NCBI GenBank assembly: GCA_030682795.1
Contig: JAUXNJ010000031.1
Span: forward strand, 1 to 64,000
Direction of reading: 5' to 3'
DNA length: 64,000 bases
Source: Sphingobacteriaceae bacterium
GTDB taxonomy: Bacteria; Bacteroidota; Bacteroidia; UBA7662
Notes under the pieces: model-generated
Databases searched by the model: none
The model's input: only the letters and a program-made list of their open reading frames with translations
What the model was told of the DNA's origin: nothing
Translations under genes and position numbers: made by a program
In this document: in pieces, positions 36,328 to 39,170 of the stretch
How the letters are laid out: every line of letters begins with the position of its first letter
How positions within the stretch are numbered: position 1 is the first letter of the stretch

Positions 36328-37131
36328 ATGAAAGCTTGGATGATTTTGTGGCTTTTTTGGCACAGCTGCAGCCTTTTACTGGCCCAGACCCCGCTACCTG
36401 GGGCCAATCGCTTGCAGGCCTTGGGTATGGATATGCCGCTGGAAGCTTCAGCCTTTGCAGCCCGCAGTTTCCCACAAGGCAGACAGGCAGAAATGGGCTG
36501 GAACTTTGGCGCAAGTCTGCACCATTATGGCGAAGTAGAAGGCCTCAATGCGCGGCAATTGGCCGTTCACCGGCAAAAAAGCAGGTACCACCAAGCCTTA
36601 TTTATTGATGACTGGGGGGATGCCTTGTACCGAGAACAGCATTTTCGCCTACATAGTGGCTTGTTTTTGGGTAAATGGCAGTTTGGCATTGGCATGCAAG
36701 CATCCCGTTTGCGTATCGTTGAACAAAGCCGCACCACCCTCAATGGCAGTCTTGGCCTCTCCTCCCGCATCAACAACCAATGGCAAGCACATGTAGCCTT
36801 GCAGCAGCTTTATCAACCCTTACCTGCCGCAGAGGAAACTCCCCTACAGCCAGCTGCTCAAAGTGTACTCGCCCTCCAATACCAACGCGATAAAACCCAA
36901 TTATTCATTACTTATCGCCAGCAATTAGGGGTGGGTGGAGATTTTGGATTAGGCTTTTTATACCAACCCATGAAAGACTGGCAATTTGACTTTGCCTGGT
37001 CAACCTTCTATCGCAGACTGAGTATAGGGATGCATTATCAATACCAAAAAATGCACTTTCATTTTGGCATCCTGTACCAATTATTGCCGGGCCCTTGGTG
37101 GAACAGCGGTATTGAAGGAGGCTGGCCGTGA
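36328..37131 (+). CDS. Predicted outer-membrane beta-barrel protein (unknown), partner of the HhH protein
   Basis: 267 residues with a signal peptide (1-19, ending LLAQ). The mature start (LPGANRLQALGMDMPLEASA) and the many alternating strands ending in aromatic residues (GLFLGKWQFGIGMQ, WQFDFAWSTFYRRLSIGMHY) look like a small PorV/PorP- or FadL-like barrel. I do not recognise a named family. It overlaps the next gene by 4 bp (ATGA), so the two proteins are made together and probably form one outer-membrane unit. A 12-bp palindrome, CGGTAATTACCG, lies 32 bp upstream. Confidence 0.7.
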   Translation: MKAWMILWLFWHSCSLLLAQTPLPGANRLQALGMDMPLEASAFAARSFPQGRQAEMGWNFGASLHHYGEVEGLNARQLAVHRQKSRYHQALFIDDWGDALYREQHFRLHSGLFLGKWQFGIGMQASRLRIVEQSRTTLNGSLGLSSRINNQWQAHVALQQLYQPLPAAEETPLQPAAQSVLALQYQRDKTQLFITYRQQLGVGGDFGLGFLYQPMKDWQFDFAWSTFYRRLSIGMHYQYQKMHFHFGILYQLLPGPWWNSGIEGGWP

Positions 37132-39170
37132 GCTGCTGTTGTTTGCCTCTGCGGGCATGTATACTGGCTGTGTTTTTTTTGGTGCCGTTGATTTTTCCGC
37201 CAAATGCCAAGGCGCAACTGCCCGAGGGTTGGTTAGAAGAATGGCTTGAAAGCGAAGAGACCGCCGATAGCGAGCTAAAAGAAGAACAACTCACTGATTT
37301 TTTATGGCTCAAGGAGCAGCTATTGGCGCATCCCATCGACCTAAACCGGGTCGATGAAAGCTCATTGCTACAAACAGGCTTGTTCCAAGCCTCCGAAGTT
37401 GCCGCCCTCCTCGCCCACCGCCAAAAGTATGGAGCATTGCTGGCCTGGTATGAATTGCAAGCCATTCCAGGCTTTACGCCAGAGAGAATCAACGCCATAG
37501 CTCCCTACTGCTTTGTAAGTCCCGGACATCAGCAAGGCAGCTTGCGATACAGCTTAAAGAGCGCAAAGCATCGGCTCTTGGTACGCAGTCATCGCATTTT
37601 GGAGCCACAGCAAGGGTACAATCCTGCACGCCAAGAAAAAGGACTGAGTCATTATGCAGGTAGTCCCCAAGCCCTGCTCCTGCAATACCGTCAATCTGGA
37701 AGTCGCCACAGTGTGGCTTTCACGGCCAGTCGCGACCCTGGCGAGCTGGGCATCGACCGGGTAGGCGGACATTTCATGAGCAAATCGCATGGCAGACTCG
37801 AACGCCTGGTGCTGGGCGATTACCAGCTGCAACTCGGACAAGGTTTGGTAGTGAACAATGGCTTTACGCCTGGGCGCAGTGCGGGCATTACGGGCAGCTA
37901 TCAGGCAGGCAGTGGCTTGCAAGGTGCCAGTGGTAACCAGCCCCACGGTATTTATCGCGGCATTGCTGCCCGCTACCGCATAAACGCACATTGGCATGTG
38001 CTTCCTTGGGCTTATCGCATGCGTTGGTCAGGCAGTACAGCAAGCAACTTCGAGGATGGAGTGCAGGGCATTACAAGCATCCAGATTTCGAACCGCTTCC
38101 GAACACCTACAGAATTGGCACGGCGGTATAACCTAGCTGTGCACGGAGCGGGCGTTCAGCTGAGTTACAACCGCCCACTGTGGGCACTTCACTGGCAAAC
38201 GCAGTACTTCCAAAGCAGTCTGCCTCTACTGCCCCGTTCGCAGCTTTACCAGCGCTTTCAGCCAACAGGCGCGCATTTTCTACACAGCAGTCTCTCCCAT
38301 CGCTGGCGAAAAGGCAAATGGCAGCAATTTGGAGAGCTCGCCCTTTATCAAGGCCAAACCCCGGCTGTAGTGCAGCATCTCCTGCTTTCGGCCAGTTCAA
38401 AACTACATTTACAATGGAGCTATCGTTACTATCCGGCAGCCTACCACAGCTTTTTCGGGAACAGCTTGAGCGCCGGCAGTCAGCTGACCAATGAAAAAGG
38501 CTTGCTTTGGCAACTGAGCTATGAGCACAACCGAAAAAATCAGTTCGATTATTACATCGACCACTACCAGCATCCGTGGTTGCGGTATCGTGTGAACGCC
38601 CCTTCTGAAGCCCTAGATCAACGCTTGCAGTGGAGCCATCAGCCAAATCGAAATAGCCGGTTGTGGGTGCGTTTAAGACATTCGGTACGGGAGCGCAACC
38701 TCAGCGAAGGTCTATTTGCAGCCCCTGTCCCCTACGAACAGTGGCGCTGGAGCGCACAATGGTCGCAGCAAATCGATGAACAATGGCAGCTGCAACTGCG
38801 TGCCGACCGCAACAGCTTCGTTCAAAACGGCTCCACAGAAACAGCCTTCTCTCTTGCCTACCGCCTTAAATGGCAACATGGTCCTTGGCGCATCAGCTGG
38901 CAGCAAGCCCAATTCGATGCAGCCAACTTCGACAACCGCTTTTATTTAAGCGAACCCGATGTGTTGTATGCGCAGGGCATGGGAATGTTGTCGGGACAAG
39001 GACTCCGCACCGTTTTACTTTTGCAATACCGCTATAGGCGCGGTCTAGACTTCTGGTTACGCTATGCCAGCAGCCGGTTTAGCGATCGTAGCAGCGTGGG
39101 CAGCGGACTGGAGGCCTCCGACGGCAACCGGCGTTCGGAAATTAAGCTTCAGGCCCAATACCGCTTTTAG
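37128..39170 (+). CDS. Helix-hairpin-helix (ComEA-like) protein with C-terminal outer-membrane barrel
   Basis: 680 residues. Signal peptide ~1-29 (ending NAKAQ). Residues ~60-125 resemble tandem ComEA-type helix-hairpin-helix units: PIDLNRVDESSLLQTGLF and LLAWYELQAIPGFTPERINA. The remaining ~550 residues are strand-rich with aromatic girdles and end in a terminal Phe (LQAQYRF), the usual mark of an outer-membrane barrel. Known: ComEA helix-hairpin-helix domains bind double-stranded DNA during uptake, and similar ~700-residue proteins are widespread but uncharacterised in Bacteroidota. A role in DNA binding or uptake at the outer membrane is inference. Translationally coupled to the small barrel protein before it. 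Confidence 0.8.
   Translation: MSCCCLPLRACILAVFFLVPLIFPPNAKAQLPEGWLEEWLESEETADSELKEEQLTDFLWLKEQLLAHPIDLNRVDESSLLQTGLFQASEVAALLAHRQKYGALLAWYELQAIPGFTPERINAIAPYCFVSPGHQQGSLRYSLKSAKHRLLVRSHRILEPQQGYNPARQEKGLSHYAGSPQALLLQYRQSGSRHSVAFTASRDPGELGIDRVGGHFMSKSHGRLERLVLGDYQLQLGQGLVVNNGFTPGRSAGITGSYQAGSGLQGASGNQPHGIYRGIAARYRINAHWHVLPWAYRMRWSGSTASNFEDGVQGITSIQISNRFRTPTELARRYNLAVHGAGVQLSYNRPLWALHWQTQYFQSSLPLLPRSQLYQRFQPTGAHFLHSSLSHRWRKGKWQQFGELALYQGQTPAVVQHLLLSASSKLHLQWSYRYYPAAYHSFFGNSLSAGSQLTNEKGLLWQLSYEHNRKNQFDYYIDHYQHPWLRYRVNAPSEALDQRLQWSHQPNRNSRLWVRLRHSVRERNLSEGLFAAPVPYEQWRWSAQWSQQIDEQWQLQLRADRNSFVQNGSTETAFSLAYRLKWQHGPWRISWQQAQFDAANFDNRFYLSEPDVLYAQGMGMLSGQGLRTVLLLQYRYRRGLDFWLRYASSRFSDRSSVGSGLEASDGNRRSEIKLQAQYRF

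Follow-up and report, generated by a model that had tools for sequence, protein, structure and literature searches.

A widespread, apparently undescribed pair of outer-membrane barrels in Bacteroidota with a degenerate ComEA-like module and a possible role in DNA uptake

Most Bacteroidota lack a recognised competence pilus. Wide outer-membrane barrels have been described in other systems, including SprA, whose barrel has 36 strands and is bound by PorV, and MtrB, the 26-strand sheath of the Mtr complex. Within the open-licence literature, competence mutant screens in Bacteroidota were found for Riemerella anatipestifer only. In this organism natural transformation requires an outer-membrane pair, RA0C_RS04915/RS04920, and a helix-hairpin-helix (HhH) protein containing three HhH domains, one of which spans residues 236–301, is also essential for transformation (PMC8459023). 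In Vibrio, a ComEA-type HhH protein drives the uptake of DNA across the outer membrane, and a lysine pair in Vibrio ComEA is needed to bind DNA (PMC3879209).

The locus considered here lies in a window of 64,000 nucleotides (the whole stretch of DNA that was analyzed) from a Sphingobacteriaceae bacterium. It consists of two co-directional genes, a partner gene (P) and a large barrel gene (H), with the following features:

36328–37131, forward strand: partner gene P, an ORF of 267 aa, predicted to encode an outer-membrane protein with a 14-strand FadL/PorV-type barrel
36328–36387, forward strand: signal peptide of P (MKAWMILWLFWHSCSLLLAQ), read by eye, cleavage putative
36496–37125, forward strand: predicted barrel domain of P, residues 57–266 (AlphaFold2/DSSP)
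37128–37131, forward strand: GTGA, in which the start codon of H overlaps the stop codon of P
37128–39170, forward strand: large barrel gene H, an ORF for a 680-aa HhH-barrel protein (homologues and AlphaFold2)
37128–37217, forward strand: signal peptide of H, 30 aa, ending NAKAQ, read by eye, cleavage putative
37335–37529, forward strand: degenerate (HhH)2 module of H, residues 70–134, predicted to be periplasmic (Pfam, family profile and hairpin/charge analysis)
37566–39167, forward strand: predicted wide beta-barrel of H, residues 147–680, about 24–26 strands (AlphaFold2/DSSP)

The pair is flanked upstream by genes for SufE, a SUF-associated assembly protein, FabH, DUF6526, and Hsp20, and downstream by genes for a methyltransferase and a Ppx/GppA phosphatase. 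An earlier sequence-only reading of the window had described a 680-residue protein with a signal peptide and a C-terminal Phe, together with a smaller neighbor, and all of these features are borne out by the two ORFs. The N-termini of P and H each carry a signal-peptide-like stretch with A-Q at its end, and residue Q30 of H is at least 90% conserved. The same reading placed the ATG of H over the stop codon of P; the 4 bp overlap is present, while the start codon is GTG, and P and H are predicted from this GTGA to be translationally coupled.

Predicted structures support the assignment of both proteins as barrels, as had been proposed. The AlphaFold2 model of H, built on a 78-row alignment, has a mean pLDDT of 89.1 and a pTM of 0.86, and shows a signal helix, then an entirely helical module at residues about 52–144 with the HhH fold inside it, and finally strands from residue 147 to 680. 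Approximately 24 of these strands are long and a few are short, which is strongly predictive of a wide barrel of 24–26 strands. Comparison of the model with the PDB using Foldseek gives MtrB as the top match (6r2q_B, E 4.4e-12, TM 0.40), with TonB-dependent receptors and AlgE ranking next, and H therefore resembles wide barrels in general. Consistent with this, MtrB has a similar number of strands but shares only 10% identity with H, the likeness is that of generic wide barrels, and there are no cytochrome genes next to H. No SprA-like protein appears in the top 50 Foldseek matches, and a HMMER search of the PDB with H alone returned no credible match.

The model of P (pLDDT 89.3, pTM 0.82) strongly predicts a 14-strand barrel of the FadL/PorV type, with the closest Foldseek matches being PorV (8gl6_F, TMq 0.75; 6h3i_F, 0.74) and FadL (2r88_A, 0.71). 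The P encoded in the window is divergent, with 16% identity to one main-group member, but its homology to the main partner family (A2) is recovered by both hhalign (E 1.7e-7) and hmmsearch (E 2e-7). It matched no family in Pfam or NCBIfam, and its relatives match only weakly (Toluene_X and PorP_SprF). The partner family as a whole matches PorV in sequence (E 3.1e-5) and is broad, with a PorV-like N-terminal signature (VGARSAAMGNASV). Similar to FadL, TodX, PorV, and PorQ, P has 14 strands; in contrast to these proteins, it belongs to a distinct, shorter subfamily that is tied to H. The combination of a wide barrel with a 14-strand FadL-type barrel recalls SprA-PorV, and on this analogy P and H most likely form a two-barrel outer-membrane complex. 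Unlike SprA, however, H contains an HhH module, has 24–26 strands, gave no match to SprA in the searches made, and occurs in Bacteroides.

The HhH portion of H was described in the sequence-only reading as several ComEA-like units forming DNA-binding hairpins. The ComEA-like fold is upheld, as the H family profile matches the ComEA chains annotated as ComE operon protein 1 (8dss_A, E 1.3e-8; 8dfk, E 1.6e-6); there is one module only, made up of two hairpins at residues about 70–134. The profile also matches EEPD1 and Tex, and is closer to ComEA than to GspK. For the protein in the window, the match to Pfam HHH_3 (residues 68–127, E 0.0055, 17.2 bits) falls below the gathering cut-off of 27 bits, and T2SSK_1st is matched with an E of 0.0032; among 40 family members, 35 match HHH_3 at E<=0.1 and 12 show similarity to T2SSK_1st. 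The residues expected of a DNA-binding hairpin are largely lost. None of 78 family members has GhG in hairpin 1, G-x-G is found at hairpin 2 in just five of the 78 (mostly outside Bacteroidia), and Lys or Arg follows hairpin 1 at position +5 in 6/78 and at position +6 in 6/78. Furthermore, the module is acidic, with a median net charge of -3 and a median pI of 4.8 across the family (-2 and 5.0 in the window). Due to the loss of the canonical residues and the acidic character of the module, DNA binding by this part of H is doubtful, and the sequence does not support the hairpin claim. Some hairpins outside Bacteroidia are nearer canonical, for example VPGINFKMA and VKGIGAATL in locus L095.

Canonical hairpins are present in a separate protein of approximately 300 aa, which is encoded in H-bearing genomes and combines three HhH modules with a hydrophobic anchor at its N-terminus. 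These short triple-HhH paralogues have GIG or GVG in 19/19 cases and Lys or Arg at +6 in 17/19, with a median pI of 8.3. The paralogue from the window's own genome (locus L112) has 299 aa, an intact GIG hairpin, and an inner-membrane anchor. The resemblance of H to ComEA thus has limits: H is exported, matches the ComEA profile, and is linked to comEC in one family, but it is fused to a wide barrel, lacks GhG in hairpin 1 and almost entirely in hairpin 2, is acidic, and coexists with a canonical triple-HhH protein. The short paralogue fits the transformation-essential HhH protein of R. anatipestifer. Riemerella RA0C_RS02645 was considered as an orthologue of H and rejected, as its three HhH domains, with one at 236–301, match the 299-aa paralogue.

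The other Riemerella system, RA0C_RS04915/RS04920, is also a two-gene outer-membrane unit in Bacteroidota, but is composed of a TonB-receptor-like protein and a DUF5689 protein. A first draw of genomes (39 with DUF5689 only, 26 with H only, 4 with both, 4 with neither) had raised the idea that the two systems are mutually exclusive. This idea was dropped following a wider draw of the class, in which 41 of 256 genomes have both, 26 have DUF5689 only, 165 have H only, and 24 have neither (odds ratio 0.23, a trend only, with kinship ignored). A divergent, apparently exported gene of the endonuclease/exonuclease/phosphatase family (PF19580 in L149, E 3e-116) adjoins five of seven TonB-receptor-like/DUF5689 loci (L149–L153), and its product is a candidate processor of incoming DNA.

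H is widespread. At E<=1e-30 it was detected in 206 of the 256 Bacteroidia genomes sampled; it also occurs in 46 of 60 relatives, and many genomes from other classes of the phylum give strong matches. A search of the genome-contig set for related loci gave a single locus, 80% identical. Gut genera are also represented, with H of Parabacteroides distasonis (WP_121956131.1) preceded directly by P (WP_121956132.1, E 1.5e-46), H of Bacteroides finegoldii being WP_237924592.1, and further examples in Phocaeicola and Prevotella. The NCBI label for these proteins is just 'helix-hairpin-helix domain-containing protein'. H is absent from whole families, including f43 and f23, the former apparently Flavobacterium-like, judging from its ribosomal protein uS2, which is nearly identical to one in PDB 9oy8. 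No experimental description of P-H, nor any transformation test of a deletion, was found in the open-licence literature, in agreement with the earlier view that the pair is, apparently, undescribed.

In 54 of 81 loci the gene immediately before H is a co-directional P, and the spacing between the two is most often -4 bp. Together with the homologues across the phylum, this indicates that the pairing is more than chance. Unlinked copies of P were sought in 20 genomes, including 11 that have H without a recognized adjacent P and 5 that lack H. A strong unlinked P was found in four of the 11 (E 2e-63 to 3e-39), and no strong P was found in the other seven or in any of the five genomes without H. 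The long ORFs of H in L066 and L096, and of P in L098, were considered as fusions and rejected as high-GC upstream extensions, and no natural P-H fusion was found among the homologues.

The neighborhood of the pair provides the best functional clue, and stronger ground than the DNA-binding hairpins. In family f42, sampled with 151 genomes from 23 genera, H is present in 124 genomes, and in 30 loci, at identities down to about 40%, comEC directly follows H in 29 and P directly precedes it in 25; the identity of ComEC was confirmed by Pfam. A survey of Bacteroidota neighborhoods, as the sequence-only reading had proposed, thus gives a mixed answer: the comEC link holds within f42, and the other families amenable to comparison showed no such adjacency. 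Moreover, comEC is present in 252 of 256 Bacteroidia genomes regardless of H, including many that lack H, among them an apparent Flavobacterium lineage. In f42 genus g58 (L188, L189, L190), P and H are both missing between a MerR-like gene and comEC, whereas in the sister genus g56 the P-H unit is present between these genes. This is a clean co-loss of P-H as a unit with comEC retained. The upstream placement, the search for unlinked P, and this joint absence show that P and H behave largely as one unit.

In other families, equally conserved neighbors of H are purK-purE, ppx/ppk, or susCD-like genes, and so the comEC operon in f42 may be incidental. The order purK-purE-P-H occurs in several families, and in L035, L037, L038, L041, L043, L055, and L064 purE, often with purK, immediately precedes the pair in the same orientation. 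A radical SAM gene follows H in Parabacteroides and Bacteroides (L184:4953-7826, L185:4941-7804), and dinD precedes the pair in Parabacteroides. Outside Bacteroidia, a conserved gene of approximately 300 aa, which we take to be DUF4835/PorD-like, is divergent beside the pair in 12 loci (L092–L097, L099–L103, L105).

We tentatively favor the reading that DNA is taken up through an outer-membrane channel built from the P and H barrels. By analogy with SprA-PorV, P and H would be in contact, with P gating, capping, or stabilizing the wide barrel of H. The termini of outer-membrane barrels lie in the periplasm, and the N-terminal (HhH)2 module is therefore expected to face this compartment, where it may sit at the inner mouth of H and plug the barrel or provide a docking site, instead of clamping DNA in the classical manner. 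From the channel, DNA would reach ComEC by way of the separate triple-HhH ComEA-like paralogue anchored in the inner membrane. Such a channel would probably have an import route across the inner membrane to feed, as comEC is nearly universal and HHH_3 proteins are found in 58 of 60 relatives. The family-wide P-H-comEC operon of f42 supports a role in uptake, and the profile relationship of the module to ComEA is consistent with it, as are the parts played by HhH proteins in DNA uptake in Vibrio and in transformation in Riemerella. Against this stand the lost hairpins and acidic module, the confinement of comEC adjacency to f42 among the families compared, the retention of comEC without P-H in g58, and the many acidic residues among the conserved barrel positions of H, which would be odd in a channel for a polyanion. 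The wider proposal, that Bacteroidota and their relatives generally take up DNA across the outer membrane through P-H, by a route needing neither pilus nor secretin and leading on to the ComEA-like protein and ComEC, is possible but somewhat less likely.

It is almost as likely that what passes through the two-barrel channel is not DNA but a protein, glycan, lipid, or small molecule, in which case the HhH module would be for docking or plugging. The HhH folds of GspK and PsbU are not known to bind DNA, and the T2SSK_1st similarity in 12 of 40 members, the degenerate hairpins and acidic charge, the near-universal occurrence of H (Bacteroides, Parabacteroides, and Prevotella included), the varied neighbors, and the retention of comEC where P-H is lost all suit such a channel. 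It is less easily reconciled with the family-wide comEC operon of f42 and with a profile that is nearer ComEA than GspK. A role in the assembly or quality control of outer-membrane components (barrels, LPS, or lipoproteins), with the module docking a periplasmic partner, would explain the very broad conservation and the docking-type module, but is improbable, as P-H is dispensable in whole families and cleanly lost in g58, unlike core assembly machines. A role in the T9SS, suggested by the PorV/FadL fold of P, the match of its family to PorV, and the divergent, presumably DUF4835/PorD-like gene, is very unlikely: Bacteroides and Chlorobiaceae lack a T9SS, and H is present in B. finegoldii and, it appears, in Chlorobiaceae, is absent from f43 and f23, one of which is apparently Flavobacterium, and yields no SprA-like Foldseek match. 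Lastly, the idea that exposed HhH units capture DNA on the cell surface or tether extracellular DNA there is scarcely tenable despite the HhH-like fold, since the N-terminus of the barrel is periplasmic, the hairpins are degenerate, and the module is acidic.

Taken together, these results indicate that the pair is genuine, that it occurs widely and has apparently not been described before, and that the earlier interpretation was half right: uptake of DNA is a plausible role given the f42 comEC operon, capture at the surface does not fit a periplasmic module, and the hairpin argument was its weakest part. The occurrence of a coupled barrel pair in a comEC operon across one family makes the question of DNA uptake in Bacteroidota directly testable. 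Should the substrate prove to be something else, a putative complex of a wide barrel and a PorV-like barrel in about 80% of sampled Bacteroidia genomes would still represent a substantial gap in the understanding of the outer membrane, one that touches environmental and gut bacteria.
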